Notes under the pieces: generated by a model
The model's input: only the letters and a program-made list of their open reading frames with translations
What the model was told of the DNA's origin: nothing
Databases searched by the model: none
Translations under genes and position numbers: made by a program
Shown here: piece after piece, positions 11,645 to 24,023 of the stretch
Layout: every line of letters starts with the position of its first letter
How positions within the stretch are numbered: the stretch's first letter is position 1
Assembly: GCF_900102635.1 (NCBI RefSeq)
Contig: NZ_FMZQ01000001.1
Span: forward strand, 806,001-870,000
Length of the DNA: 64,000 nt
From: Ectopseudomonas chengduensis
Lineage (GTDB): Bacteria > Pseudomonadota > Gammaproteobacteria > Pseudomonadales > Pseudomonadaceae
Reading direction: 5' to 3'

Positions 11645-14988
<3,344 letters not shown>

Positions 14989-15043: not shown

Positions 15044-15095
15044 ACGAGATATCGTTTTTTAATCTGACGAATTCTCGCGAATAACGATATTTCGT
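15044..15095. promoter_or_regulatory. Three ACGA-N4-TCGT-type boxes, probable activator sites
   Basis: Two perfect half-site palindromes, ACGAGATATCGT (15044-15055) and ACGATATTTCGT (15084-15095), flank a third with one deviation, ACGAATTCTCGC (15067-15078). The set lies about 60-110 bp upstream of the sigma-54 promoter, the usual place for an enhancer-binding protein such as CynF. The sites also sit next to the cynF start at 14988, so they could mediate autoregulation. Confidence 0.6.
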
Positions 15096-15151
15096 ATTTA
15101 TTGATTTTATTAAAAATCTATATTTTTCAATTGCTTATATATGTTTTTGAA

Positions 15152-15170
15152 CTGGTATAGCTCCTGCAAT
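15152..15170 (+). promoter_or_regulatory. Sigma-54 (-24/-12) promoter of the cyanate operon
   Basis: The sequence CTGGTATAGCTCCTGCAAT has the invariant GG (15154-15155) and GC (15166-15167) separated by exactly 10 bp, as in the consensus TGGCAC-N5-TTGC. It lies about 90 bp upstream of cynA and downstream of the ACGA-N4-TCGT boxes. With a GAFTGA activator encoded divergently, this is strong support for sigma-54 control. Confidence 0.75.
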
Positions 15171-15256: not shown

Positions 15257-16624
15257 ATGAGCGTCAACAGCCTGGACGATCCATTCAGCCCCGACAGCGA
15301 GCTTTCCCATGCCGCCGGGTGTGCTTGCCAGCGTTGCACGCCGAGTGCCGCTGCGCTGCCCGATGACAGCGAGGCCATGCTCGATCGCGCGGTGGAGAAC
15401 GCCATCGTGCGTGGTGTGTTCGGCCATAACGATTTCTCCCGGCGCAGTTTCATGGGAATGATCGGTGGCGGTGTCGCGGCGGCGATTCTGGGCAGCATGA
15501 TCCCGCTGGATGCGGTCAAGGCGGCGGTCAAGGACAGCCTTGGTCCGTTGGAAAAGGCCAAGCTGAAGATCGGCTTCGTGCCCATCACCTGCGCCACGCC
15601 GATCATCATGGCCGAGCCGATGGGCTTCTACGCCAAGTACGGGCTGGAGGTCGAAACGGTGAAGACCGCTGGCTGGGCGGTGGCGCGTGACAAGTCGCTG
15701 GCCGGCGAATACGACGCCTCGCACATGCTTTCGCCGATGCCGCTGGCCATCAGCCTGGGGCTGGGTTCGACGCAGACGCCCTTCGTCATGCCGGCGCTGG
15801 AAAACGTCAACGGCCAGGCCATCGTGCTCGGCATGCAGCACCAGGACAAGCGCGATCCGAAACTGTGGAAGGGCATGCGCTTCGGTGTGCCGTTCGAATA
15901 CTCGATGCACAACTTCCTGCTGCGCTACTACGTCGCCGAGCATGGCCTGGACCCGGATCGCGACATCCAGATTCGCGTGGTGCCGCCACCGGAGATGGTC
16001 GCCAACCTGCGTGCCGGCAACCTCGATGGCTTCCTCTCGCCGGACCCGTTCAACCAGCGCGCGGTGTGGGAGAAGGTCGGTTTCATCCACCTGCTGACCA
16101 AGGAGCTGTGGCCGGGCCATCCGTGCTGCGCCTTCGCCTGCAGCCAGCGCTTCGCCAGCGAGAATCCCAACACCTATGGCGCGCTGCTGCATGCGCTGAT
16201 CGATGCCACGCAGTATTCCTCCAAGGCCGAGAACCGCAAGGCGGTGGCCGAGGCGATCTCCACTCGCAACTACCTCAACCAGCCGGTGCCGGTGGTGCAG
16301 CAGGTGCTCAGCGGGCGTTATGCCGATGGCCTGGGCAACATTCATGACGAGCCGCAGCGCATCGACTTCGATCCGTTCCCCTGGCAGTCGATGGCGGTGT
16401 GGATCCTCACCCAGATGAAGCGCTGGGGCTATCTGCAGGGGGATGTCGACTACCGCAATATTGCCGAGCGGGTGTTCCTCGCGGCTGACGCCGGCAAGGT
16501 GATGAAAGAGCTCGGTCTGCCGGTACCGGCGGATGCCTACAAGTCGTTCAGCGTGATGGGCAAACCCTTCGATCCGGCCGATCCGGACGGTTACCTGGCC
16601 AGCTTCGCCATGCGGAGGTCGTGA
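15257..16624 (+). CDS. cynA: Cyanate ABC transporter substrate-binding protein (NrtA/CmpA family)
   Basis: This is the solute-binding component of an NrtA/CmpA-type importer, here probably for cyanate. The ATG at 15257 has AGGAG 8 bp upstream; a GTG at 15248 would overlap that ribosome site. The 455-residue product carries a twin-arginine signal with SRRSFMG at residues 61-67, preceded by an unusually long n-region holding a C-A-C-Q-R-C cluster (Cys22, Cys24, Cys27). The mature part starts with KAKLKIGFVPITCATP, typical of NMT1/THI5-like nitrate, bicarbonate and cyanate binding proteins. It overlaps the permease start by one base. Substrate is inferred from cyanase in the same operon; nitrate is the main alternative by family. 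Confidence 0.85.
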   Translation: MSVNSLDDPFSPDSELSHAAGCACQRCTPSAAALPDDSEAMLDRAVENAIVRGVFGHNDFSRRSFMGMIGGGVAAAILGSMIPLDAVKAAVKDSLGPLEKAKLKIGFVPITCATPIIMAEPMGFYAKYGLEVETVKTAGWAVARDKSLAGEYDASHMLSPMPLAISLGLGSTQTPFVMPALENVNGQAIVLGMQHQDKRDPKLWKGMRFGVPFEYSMHNFLLRYYVAEHGLDPDRDIQIRVVPPPEMVANLRAGNLDGFLSPDPFNQRAVWEKVGFIHLLTKELWPGHPCCAFACSQRFASENPNTYGALLHALIDATQYSSKAENRKAVAEAISTRNYLNQPVPVVQQVLSGRYADGLGNIHDEPQRIDFDPFPWQSMAVWILTQMKRWGYLQGDVDYRNIAERVFLAADAGKVMKELGLPVPADAYKSFSVMGKPFDPADPDGYLASFAMRRS

Positions 16625-17460
16625 TGAAAGCGTCCATTTCCCTGCGCGCGGCGATCCTCTCCGCGCTGCTGTTGGTGCTGCTACTCGCCATCTGGGAGGT
16701 GCTCTGCCGAGTGCCCGCCAGCGCGGCAGTCAGTGCCGATGACGAATACGCCCTGCTCATGGGCGAGGCCGAGCAGGAGGCCCGCGTGCCGCCGCCTTCG
16801 GTGGTGTTGGCGCATGCCTATGCCGAGCTTAGCCAGCCGTTCTATGACAACGGGCCCAACGACAAGGGCATCGGCATCCAGCTCGCACATTCGTTGTACC
16901 GGGTACTGACCGGTTATCTGCTGGCGGCGCTGGTGGCGATCCCGGTCGGTTTCGTCATCGGCATGTCGCCGCTGATGTACCGCGCGCTCAATCCCTTCAT
17001 CCAGATCCTGCGACCGATCTCGCCGCTGGCCTGGATGCCGCTGGCGCTGTTCGTGATCAAGGATTCGCAGACCTCGGCGATCTTCGTGATCTTCATCTGC
17101 TCGGTGTGGCCGATGCTGCTCAACACCGCCTTCGGGGTGGCGGGCGTGCGTCGCGACTGGATCAATGTCGCCCGCACCCATGAGCTGAGCCCGCTGCGCA
17201 CGGCGTTCAGCGTGATCCTGCCCGCCGCCATGCCGACCATCCTTACCGGTATGCGTATTTCGGTGGGCATCGCCTGGCTGGTGATCGTCGCCGCCGAGAT
17301 GCTCGTCGGTGGCACCGGTATTGGCTACTACGTGTGGAACGAGTGGAACAACCTCAATCTGGCCAGCGTGATCTTCTCGATTCTGATGATCGGCGTGGTC
17401 GGCATGCTGCTCGACCTTCTGCTGGGCAGCGTCGCCCGTCTCGTCAGCTACCAGGAGTGA
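16624..17460 (+). CDS. cynB: Cyanate ABC transporter permease
   Basis: This is the inner-membrane permease of the NrtB/SsuC/TauC family. I took the ATG at 16624, which overlaps the cynA stop, with GGAGG upstream. The 278-residue protein has an N-terminal membrane anchor, a periplasmic stretch, then five further membrane segments. The EAA loop that contacts the ATPase is visible near residue 180 as INVARTHELSPLRTAFSVIL. It ends 4 bp before the ATPase gene, within the cynABDS operon. Confidence 0.85.
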   Translation: MKASISLRAAILSALLLVLLLAIWEVLCRVPASAAVSADDEYALLMGEAEQEARVPPPSVVLAHAYAELSQPFYDNGPNDKGIGIQLAHSLYRVLTGYLLAALVAIPVGFVIGMSPLMYRALNPFIQILRPISPLAWMPLALFVIKDSQTSAIFVIFICSVWPMLLNTAFGVAGVRRDWINVARTHELSPLRTAFSVILPAAMPTILTGMRISVGIAWLVIVAAEMLVGGTGIGYYVWNEWNNLNLASVIFSILMIGVVGMLLDLLLGSVARLVSYQE

Positions 17461-17464
17461 TGTC

Positions 17465-18373
17465 ATGTCCCGTTATTTTCTCGATGCCCGACGCCTGGCC
17501 AAACGCTTCCCGCAACCCGGCAGCGAGCCGCTGACGGTCTTCGAAGACGTCAGCTTCGGTCTTGATCAGGGCGAGTTCGTCTGCATCATCGGTCACTCCG
17601 GCTGCGGCAAGTCGACCATTCTCAATGCCCTGGCCGGACTCGACAGTTTCAGCGAAGGCACGCTGGAAATGGCCGGCAAGGAAGTCGCCGGGCCCAGCCT
17701 CGAACGCGGCGTGGTGTTCCAGAACTACAGCCTGCTGCCCTGGCTCAGCGCGCTGGAGAACGTGGAGTTCGGCGTGCGTGCGCGTTTCCCGCAGTGGTCG
17801 AAGGAGCAGCGCCGTGCGCACAGCCGCAAGTACCTGGAAATGGTCGGCCTGGGCGGCTCCGAGGCGCGCAAGCCGGCGCAGCTGTCCGGAGGCATGCGCC
17901 AGCGCGTGAGCATCGCCCGCGCCTTCGCCACCCAGCCGCAGTTGCTGCTGCTCGATGAACCCTTCGGTGCGCTGGATGCCCTGACCCGCGGGGTGATCCA
18001 GGACGAACTGATCAAGATCTGGAGCGCCACCAAGCAGACGGTGTTCATGATCACCCATGACATCGACGAGGCGATCCTGCTCTCCGACCGCATCCTGCTG
18101 ATGACCAACGGCCCGCAGGCACGTATCGCCGAGTCGGTGCGCATCGACCTGCCACGGCCACGGCAGCGCGACCAAGTGATTCATCACCCGGCGTACTACC
18201 GCATCCGTAACCACCTCGTGGACTTTCTGGTGAACCGCTCGCACGAGCTGCGCGGCCGCACCGTGGCCGACGAGCAAGGCTTCCCGCCCGAAATCAACCC
18301 CGCCCTGGACGAGCCGGCAGCGGCCGCCAGGGTCGTACCTCTGACCACTGTGAAGGAGTTTCACCATGGATAA
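17465..18373 (+). CDS. cynD: Cyanate ABC transporter ATP-binding protein
   Basis: This is the ATPase of the NrtD/SsuB/TauB family that powers the cyanate importer. The 302-residue product has Walker A GHSGCGKST near residue 43, Q-loop VVFQNYSLLPWL, signature LSGGMRQR near 142 and Walker B LLLLDEPFGALD, followed by the H-loop THDIDEA. The C-terminal extension after residue 250 is common in this family. It lies between the permease and cyanase and overlaps cynS by 8 bp. Confidence 0.88.
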   Translation: MSRYFLDARRLAKRFPQPGSEPLTVFEDVSFGLDQGEFVCIIGHSGCGKSTILNALAGLDSFSEGTLEMAGKEVAGPSLERGVVFQNYSLLPWLSALENVEFGVRARFPQWSKEQRRAHSRKYLEMVGLGGSEARKPAQLSGGMRQRVSIARAFATQPQLLLLDEPFGALDALTRGVIQDELIKIWSATKQTVFMITHDIDEAILLSDRILLMTNGPQARIAESVRIDLPRPRQRDQVIHHPAYYRIRNHLVDFLVNRSHELRGRTVADEQGFPPEINPALDEPAAAARVVPLTTVKEFHHG

Positions 18374-18806
18374 GCAACAGATGCGCATCACCATCACCGC
18401 CGCCAAAGAGCGCCTTGGCCTGGACTGGGCCGCACTTGGCCAGGGCATCGGCATGTCGCCGGTGTGGACGACCTCCGCCTGCCTGGGCATGAACAGCATG
18501 CCCAAGGCGCAGGCAGATGCCCTGTGCGAGATGCTCGAATTGCCGGTGGAGGTCTCCACCGCACTGCAGGCCTTCCCGCACAAGCACTGGGACAAGGCCG
18601 TGCCCACCGACCCGTTGATCTACCGCTTCTACGAGATGATCAACGTCTACGGTGAGACCATCAAGGAGCTGATCCACGAAGAATTCGGCGACGGCATCAT
18701 GAGCGCCATCGACTTCAGCATGGACATTTCCCGCGTCGCCGACCCCAAGGGTGACCGTGTACAGATCGTGCTCAACGGCAAGTTTCTGCCCTATCGCAGC
18801 TGGTGA
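18366..18806 (+). CDS. cynS: Cyanate hydratase (cyanase) CynS
   Basis: Cyanase converts cyanate and bicarbonate to ammonia and CO2, detoxifying cyanate and supplying nitrogen. The 146-residue protein keeps the catalytic triad of E. coli CynS (Arg96, Glu99, Ser122) as Arg87, Glu90 and Ser113 in YRFYEMINVYG and IMSAIDFS. The N-terminal helical domain mediates decamer assembly. The start has a strong AAGGAG site inside the end of cynD. It is the last gene of the operon, closed by the hairpin at 18835-18862. This gene is what identifies the transporter as a cyanate system. Confidence 0.96.
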   Translation: MDKQQMRITITAAKERLGLDWAALGQGIGMSPVWTTSACLGMNSMPKAQADALCEMLELPVEVSTALQAFPHKHWDKAVPTDPLIYRFYEMINVYGETIKELIHEEFGDGIMSAIDFSMDISRVADPKGDRVQIVLNGKFLPYRSW

Positions 18807-23025: not shown

Positions 23026-24023
23026 CTGCGTTCCAGCACCGTCAGAGCGCCCACTGCGAAAGTGGCGTCATGGCCAGCCTGTTGACCCACGCCGGTTTGC
23101 CGATGAGCGAGCCGATGGCTTTCGGCCTGGCGTCGGGTCTGGCCTTCGCCTACCTGCCGATCGTCAAGATCGGTGGCATGCCGCTGATTGCCTACCGCAT
23201 GCCGCCACGGCACTTGATCAAGACCCTGAGCAAGCGCCTCGGCGTGCGTTTGACCAGTCGCACCTTCTCCAATCCCGAGCAGGGCCGCGTGGCGCTGGAT
23301 GCGGCGCTCGACAGCGGTCGTCTGGCCGGTCTGCAAAGTTCGGTATTCTGGCTGCCGTATTTCCCGCCGGAGATGCGTTTTCACTTCAATGCGCACAACC
23401 TGCTGGCGTATGGGCGCGACGGCGACGAGTACCTGCTCAGCGACCCGGTGTTCGAGGCGCCGGTGCGTTGCGCCAGCGCCGACCTGCAGAAAGCACGCTT
23501 CGCCAAGGGCGCGCTGGCGGCCAAGGGCCTGATGTACTACCTCGACGATGTGTCGTCGGAGCAGGATTGGGAGCGCCTGATCCGCCAGAGCGTGCTGTCC
23601 ACCTCGCGCATCCTCGACGGTATGCCGCTGCCATGGATCGGTATTCGTGGCATCCAGCACCTGGCCAAATGCGTTGAGGCGCTCGACCCTGCTCAGGCCA
23701 AGTACAACCGCCTGTACCTGACCCATATCGTGCGCATGCAGGAAGAGATCGGCACCGGCGGTGCGGGCTTTCGCTTCATGTACGCCAGCTTTTTGCAGGA
23801 GGCCGGCGAGAAGATCGGTGACGCCAGCCTGCAGGAGGCTTCGGTGCGGCTCACCTCGGTGGGCGACGACTGGCGCCAGTTCGCCTCGGCCTGCGTGCGT
23901 GCCAGCCGCAGCAAGGGCGAGGCACCGGACTTCAGGCCGATTGCCGACAGCCTGCGCACGATTGCCGATCAGGAGCGGGCATTGATGAGAGAGTTGGGCG
24001 CTTGGGCCAAGCGCAAGGGTTGA
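23022..24023 (+). CDS. BtrH N-terminal domain protein, putative acyltransferase
   Basis: The 333-residue product has an N-terminal BtrH-like domain: HRQSAHCESGVMASLL holds a candidate nucleophilic Cys at residue 12, and the later SDPVF motif supplies a conserved Asp. BtrH moves an acyl group from an ACP to butirosin; relatives occur in lipid and peptide clusters. The C-terminal helical half resembles the DUF4872 partner domain. The start overlaps the preceding stop (ATGA). Context with an ACP and ketosynthases suggests transfer of an ACP-bound chain to an unknown acceptor. The acceptor cannot be read from sequence. Confidence 0.75.
   Translation: MTAFQHRQSAHCESGVMASLLTHAGLPMSEPMAFGLASGLAFAYLPIVKIGGMPLIAYRMPPRHLIKTLSKRLGVRLTSRTFSNPEQGRVALDAALDSGRLAGLQSSVFWLPYFPPEMRFHFNAHNLLAYGRDGDEYLLSDPVFEAPVRCASADLQKARFAKGALAAKGLMYYLDDVSSEQDWERLIRQSVLSTSRILDGMPLPWIGIRGIQHLAKCVEALDPAQAKYNRLYLTHIVRMQEEIGTGGAGFRFMYASFLQEAGEKIGDASLQEASVRLTSVGDDWRQFASACVRASRSKGEAPDFRPIADSLRTIADQERALMRELGAWAKRKG

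Follow-up and report, generated by a model that had tools for sequence, protein, structure and literature searches.

Three palindromic boxes of the type ACGA-N4-TCGT lie between the divergent cynF and cynABDS genes of Ectopseudomonas chengduensis and, judged from the sequence, are very probably docking sites for the enhancer-binding protein (EBP) CynF. We find that the operator array they form is real and widely conserved; it is new in detail and known in kind. The array sits in a 64,000-nucleotide stretch of DNA, the window of this report, in which a sequence-only reading had noticed boxes at 15044, 15067 and 15084, two perfect and one with a single change. We re-read the sequence and found them exactly so. 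The features of the locus are given below in window coordinates; L and G numbers used later are our labels for loci and genomes.

13057..14988, minus strand: cynF, PAS-AAA+ enhancer-binding protein with a predicted C-terminal HTH, 643 aa, with GAFTGA in the translation
13060..13290, minus strand: CynF residues 567-643, predicted Fis-type DNA-binding domain (AlphaFold model, mean pLDDT 88)
15044..15055, no strand: box 1, ACGAGATATCGT, exact ACGA-N4-TCGT, promoter-distal, candidate CynF box; triad conserved
15067..15078, no strand: box 2, ACGAATTCTCGC, middle, one mismatch at the last base
15084..15095, no strand: box 3, ACGATATTTCGT, exact, promoter-proximal, 17 bp from box 2
15096..15152, no strand: AT-rich spacer from box 3 to the promoter; among 13 close relatives, 35 of its 57 columns are variable, and its length shifts in helical steps across species
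15153..15168, plus strand: -24/-12 (sigma-54) promoter element of cynABDS, TGGTATAGCTCCTGCA
15257..16624, plus strand: cynA, cyanate ABC transporter substrate-binding protein, ATG at 15257 (the ORF list start, GTG 15248, is mechanical)
16621..17460, plus strand: cynB, ABC permease
17465..18373, plus strand: cynD, ABC ATPase
18366..18806, plus strand: cynS, cyanase (PF02560, TIGR00673)

The box array in the window

The locus is a cynFABDS cluster, in which cynF diverges from cynABD and the cyanase gene cynS across a gap of 268 bp (cynF start 14988, cynA ATG 15257). The cluster of P. pseudoalcaligenes CECT5344 has the same genes, the same order and the same 268 bp between cynF and cynA; a sigma-54 promoter is reported for its cynA side, and both cyanase activity and cynABDS induction require CynF (PMC6627978). 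In the main text of that study "palindrom" occurs 0 times, and no mention of the boxes was found.

Start to start, the boxes of the window are 23 bp (boxes 1-2) and 17 bp (boxes 2-3) apart, and box 3 starts 69 bp upstream of the TGG of the promoter at 15153. The sequence-only reading had placed them where an EBP should sit and just upstream of cynF itself. Both placements stand: the array is upstream of the -24/-12 element, in helical register with the promoter, and 55-107 bp upstream of the cynF start codon.

Exact ACGANNNNTCGT occurs three times in the 64-kb window against 0.54 expected, a count reached in 0 of 100 shuffles. Two of the copies are boxes 1 and 3, 40 bp apart start to start. 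The third, ACGATGTGTCGT at 23545-23556, has no partner among the one-mismatch matches and is probably due to chance. Since one-mismatch boxes are at chance level in the window (19 seen, 17.9 expected), box 2 is meaningful only through its place in the array; a comparison of 13 closely related loci, the window locus among them, has it exact in 9.

Across the whole genome, the pattern box-N26-30-box has a single occurrence, the cyn site. The 17-bp dyad, allowing up to three mismatches, matches 8 places in the genome, among which only the cyn one has fewer than three (one); its backward control pattern matches 49. These box and dyad scans gave no second array at the strict level, and the array therefore leaves unexplained the altered nitrate reductase of a cynF mutant, which is constitutive in CECT5344 (PMC6627978). 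Seven other EBP loci of the same genome have no array, with 7-10 mismatches at best.

Conservation across alpha- and gammaproteobacteria

With the window protein as query, relatives of CynF came from 20 genomes out of 199 in the genus, 23 out of 298 in the family and 20 out of 398 in the phylum, and from named genomes as the best 80 of 576 confirmed stretches. Two variant CynF proteins as queries gave 21 genomes out of 369 in the class and 33 out of 293 in the order. All searches but the one of named genomes used a threshold of E 1e-150, and each search contributed loci for no more than 30 matches. There were 201 loci with a strong CynF match; one with 12 upstream bases was dropped, and 179 were left after removing copies that share a 100-bp stretch. 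A triad was called at three or fewer total mismatches over the three boxes, a weak triad at 4-5.

Conservation upstream of orthologous cynA genes had been set as a test beforehand, and the array passes it. Among the loci kept, from alpha- and gammaproteobacteria, the ACGA triad is present in 111 of 126 distinct loci with cynA or cynS, many of them close relatives, Bradyrhizobium above all. The remaining loci comprise 7 with a GC-type variant triad of the same spacing, 5 with a weak triad (L040, L041, L043, L083, L160) and 3 without a recognizable array (L127, L164, L205). None of 358 shuffled controls came within six mismatches of the triad. In the first collection, 104 of the 113 cynA/cynS loci had shown a triad with up to three mismatches, and none of 432 shuffles reached one even at up to five. 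The spacing of the 111 triads is 22/17 in 47, 21/17 in 42, 23/17 in 20 and 22/18 in 2; that is, boxes 2 and 3 are 17 bp apart in 109 and boxes 1 and 2 are 21-23 bp apart. In matrices from 64 non-redundant triads of the first collection, the ACGA/TCGT arms carry 1.15-2.0 bits per position and the N4 is AT-rich, near AATW, for a box consensus of about ACGA-AATW-TCGT. CynF identity across the array-bearing species is mostly 54-60%.

The three cyn loci without an array encode proteins with unusual recognition helices, PTTLYSQ, NPTTLNSK and APTLYSK for L127, L164 and L205, and may use other words. In another 22 distinct loci the stretch contains no cyn or nit neighbour; a triad is present in 3 of them, a weak one in 3, and 16 have none. 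At L165 and L168, and more weakly at L167, L169 and L170, 22/17 arrays stand beside CynF-like regulators with no cyn or nit genes found adjoining. Judged from their translations, the divergent genes would encode an exported protein at L165 and L168, a protein resembling MlaC at L167 and an alpha/beta hydrolase at L169 and L170. Related EBPs with a PSTLxYR helix instead of PTTLxSR (L172, L174-L176, L178, L206, L207) have no array and are natural negatives.

The arms are held while the DNA around them drifts. Among 13 near relatives (CynF 95-100% identical), variable columns number 3 of 24 in the arms, 7 of 12 in the N4, 10 of 16 between boxes, 35 of 57 from box 3 to the promoter and 1 of 16 in the promoter; arms against N4 plus spacers (52 of 85) gives a Fisher p of 2e-5. 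The -24/-12 promoter has a consensus score of at least 15 at 170 of 171 array loci, copies included, and thinning of the 171 rows left 126 non-redundant arrays with promoter for a register test. Distances from box 3 to TGG fall into clusters of 67-73, 78-86 and 91-95 bp at cyn loci, and of 103-104 and 112-115 bp, with one at 135, at nit loci. Their phase vector is 0.72 near 10.7 bp, a value as high being reached in 0 of 2000 random sets, with the proviso that the array sequences are related and the loci thus not independent trials. The palindromic repeats therefore lie as expected of a sigma-54 enhancer, upstream of the -24/-12 promoter and in helical register with it.

The array follows the regulator gene

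Of 298 family genomes, 15 contain an exact dyad (gap 4-12), which in 13 adjoins cynF or nitA and in 2 falls in a repetitive coding region. A backward control pattern is commoner (21 of 298), so it is the placement beside cynF or nitA, and not the number of genomes, that is evidence. The mismatch in box 2 keeps the E. chengduensis genome itself out of the 15.

We also looked from the side of cyanase. A PF02560 search found cyanases in 74 of 137 genus genomes (78 matches), and 30 loci were fetched. The 24 loci without cynF within about 1.5 kb (L236-L259) all lack the array, their best triad having 7-9 mismatches; the control reached 1.5 kb per side, and as L230-L232 and L234 have cynF operons with the array outside the stretch, the 24 too could have a distant upstream array that escaped the control. 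At none of these 24 are cynA, cynB or cynD in the stretch, and 3 (L241, L242, L246) have a lone exact box. Locus L235 has both cynF and the array. At L233 (G118) the genes run gltD-cynS-hemE, 95%, 79% and 92% identical to the window proteins, and cynF, cynABD and the boxes are all absent, as though they had been lost jointly.

CynF-like proteins of pseudomonads without cyn neighbours were NitA in the cases read, with a divergent NitB (TIGR04044) and then a Nit6803-family nitrilase, NitC (TIGR04048). NitA, of the Nit1C (cyanide/nitrile) clusters, is a paralogue of CynF, 51-57% identical over nearly the full length, and shares its box and three-box array, which is divergent from nitB and accompanied by a -24/-12 promoter. 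The 31 distinct nitB/nitC loci divide into 27 with an ACGA triad, 3 variant and 1 weak, with a spacing of 22-23/18. Boxes 2 and 3 are thus 18 bp apart at nit loci versus 17 bp at cyn loci, and the promoter is further off (box 3 to TGG 103-135 versus 67-95 bp). The third box has a left arm other than ACGA, most often ACGG, in 21 of 30 ACGA-type nit loci. A literature search, covering mostly non-subscription journals, found no published NitA site.

Eight genomes have cynF and nitA together (G063, G085, G133, G159, G167, G776, G786, G839). Both arrays are of the ACGA type in seven of them; the exception is G776, whose cynF array (L139) is RYGC-N4-GCRY and whose nitA array (L152) is of the ACGA type. 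An additional CynF-like gene of G063 (L033) lies on a short contig and shows neither an array nor an identifiable neighbour. It is possible, if somewhat doubtful, that CynF and NitA share one operator word and that their promoters are told apart only by array geometry (a box 2-3 spacing of 17 versus 18 bp, and the distance to the promoter), with cross-activation in genomes that have both. G776 would then have resolved the conflict by a specificity switch, its CynF boxes changing to RYGC-N4-GCRY together with R618-W619 and its NitA boxes keeping ACGA-N4-TCGT.

Variant boxes and the recognition helix

Variant arrays, built from ACGC-N4-GCGT, ATGC-N4-GCAT or mixtures, are found at L042, L070, L103, L139, L181, L183 and L204 and at the nit loci L201-L203, with the geometry unchanged (22-23/17 and 22-23/18). 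L204 is mixed, and so is L183, at three mismatches. The variant model is permissive. Up to two mismatches are matched in 4 of 358 shuffles, or 1 of 358 with spacing limited to 22-23/17-18, and up to three in 21 of 358, or 4 of 358 when limited; the single three-mismatch call, L183, is therefore uncertain.

CynF has PAS domains and an AAA+ sigma-54 interaction domain in Pfam (PF00158, E 5e-74), GAFTGA included. Pfam lists no HTH family in it at E 0.001, and the HTH has no match by sequence to solved structures at E 1. The NCBIfam FhlA and PrdR models match CynF up to residues 623 and 619, FhlA being the best NCBIfam relative by E-value with 380.7 bits, which does not reach the cut-off of 830. 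The C-terminal model folds as a helix-turn-helix, with the NtrC4 and Fis DNA-binding domains at the top of the structure list at middling Z (6.9-7.4), too low to be sufficient by itself. Residues 609-618 are the recognition helix in this predicted model, so residues 618-619 would lie at its end; we do not claim direct base contact.

At these two positions, R618-[W/M]619 is found in 10 of 10 variant proteins with a C-terminus, versus 1 of 158 of the ACGA type (L161), copies included; the 10 count L182, a near copy of L042. A tree of 78 proteins, from which the HTH was left out, calls for at least four changes of box type, three of them forced by well supported branches, gain not being distinguishable from loss. 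The helix follows the box in 2.9 of three supported independent pairs on average and never goes the opposite way (sign test p 0.25). The best contrast is L180 (KF, ACGA) next to L181 and L042 (RW, GC-type). The Arg-Trp/Met pair goes with the variant box at three or more places in the tree, a number that does not reach significance.

Discussion

The array is conserved in sequence and geometry, in register with the promoter and linked to the CynF and NitA genes. We consider it very likely that the boxes are upstream activating sites of the divergent CynF, on which three dimers would seed a hexamer that activates the sigma-54 promoter of cynABDS. Each 12-bp palindrome would bind one CynF dimer through the predicted Fis-type HTH, and the 21-23/17 bp array would gather three of them. 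Once the PAS-containing N-terminal part is activated under cyanate/low-ammonium conditions, an AAA+ hexamer would form, contact by looping the sigma-54 polymerase at the -24/-12 promoter, which is helically phased with the array, and open the promoter for cynABDS. Seeding by three dimers is suggested by analogy with E. coli norVW, where three NorR sites are essential and scaffold a higher-order oligomer (PMC2941729). E. coli NorR, like CynF, has a divergent EBP gene, three palindromic sites and a -24/-12 promoter. Its sites are GT-N7-AC instead of ACGA-N4-TCGT and are spaced 21 and 24 bp start to start versus 21-23 and 17 bp, which makes one side of the CynF array the more compact. The sensor of NorR is a GAF domain that detects NO, whereas CynF has PAS domains. 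Counting against the proposal, the 17-bp spacing is 1.6 turns, which would turn adjacent dimers to different sides of the DNA, in contrast to the E. coli NorR sites. CynF may share the mode of action of NorR, but it is not NorR.

The boxes might instead be mainly autoregulatory, with CynF repressing its own promoter and the cynA promoter activated from other sites. They do lie where a cynF promoter is expected, and a sigma-70 promoter is reported for cynF in CECT5344 (PMC6627978). Yet no sigma-70-like promoter for cynF passed our scan at the window locus, the array keeps register with the -24/-12 element while box 1 begins at anything between 15 and 285 bp from the aligned start of cynF, and a non-systematic look upstream of the promoter noticed no other conserved array; we judge autoregulation as the main role unlikely. 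A dimer could also bind across the gap between boxes (TCGT-N5/N10-ACGA), an everted site like that of FhlA (consensus CATTTCGTACGAAATG). FhlA, the relative of CynF far under its cut-off, has a related HTH (E. coli ...LGLKRTTLLSRMKRLGI), and its upstream activating sites hold the same half-site letters, TTTCGT/ACGAAA, in the opposite order (PMC4987338). What makes this very improbable is that all six half-sites are conserved, the outermost included, and that the in-box gap of 4 holds while box spacing varies (21-23, 17/18), a consistency argument since our search imposed N4. Three E. coli stretches (hycA-hypA, hydN upstream, hycB-hycA) gave no good match to either the CynF box or the FhlA motif.

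The NtrC consensus is unlike the ACGA-N4-TCGT box. Ownership of the boxes by NtrC or by another regulator, such as a repressor or a nucleoid protein, is extremely improbable in our estimation, and we rejected it on the linkage to CynF/NitA genes: array presence follows these genes and not cyanase genes, and variant boxes go with the CynF/NitA recognition helix. Cyn expression is ammonium-repressed too (PMC6627978), so an NtrC-type input is possible. That the palindromes are due to chance, or simply to common descent of the intergenic region, is scarcely credible. One-mismatch boxes are indeed no commoner than chance in the window, but chance was rejected by the window shuffles (0/100) and the triad shuffles (0/432, 0/358), and the conservation data speak against both: the arms stay the same as N4 and spacers change, and the array is retained in alpha- and gammaproteobacteria whose CynF proteins have diverged as far as noted above.

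The activating-site reading gives a specific, widely conserved candidate operator to a regulator without a site in the searchable literature. The sequence-only reading knew of no published binding motif for CynF, and our literature search, covering mostly non-subscription journals, is consistent with that, having recognized no earlier description of the box. The control code is directly testable, and the array would be useful for building cyanate or cyanide biosensors. Both the three-dimer hexamer model and the helical phasing of enhancers gain a comparative case from it. The word shared by CynF and NitA and the paired change of box and helix are points of specialist interest, the paired protein and DNA changes at several tree points offering a test of site choice by Fis-type EBP domains. 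The same operator is predicted for NitA, the regulator of cyanide-assimilation (Nit1C) clusters.
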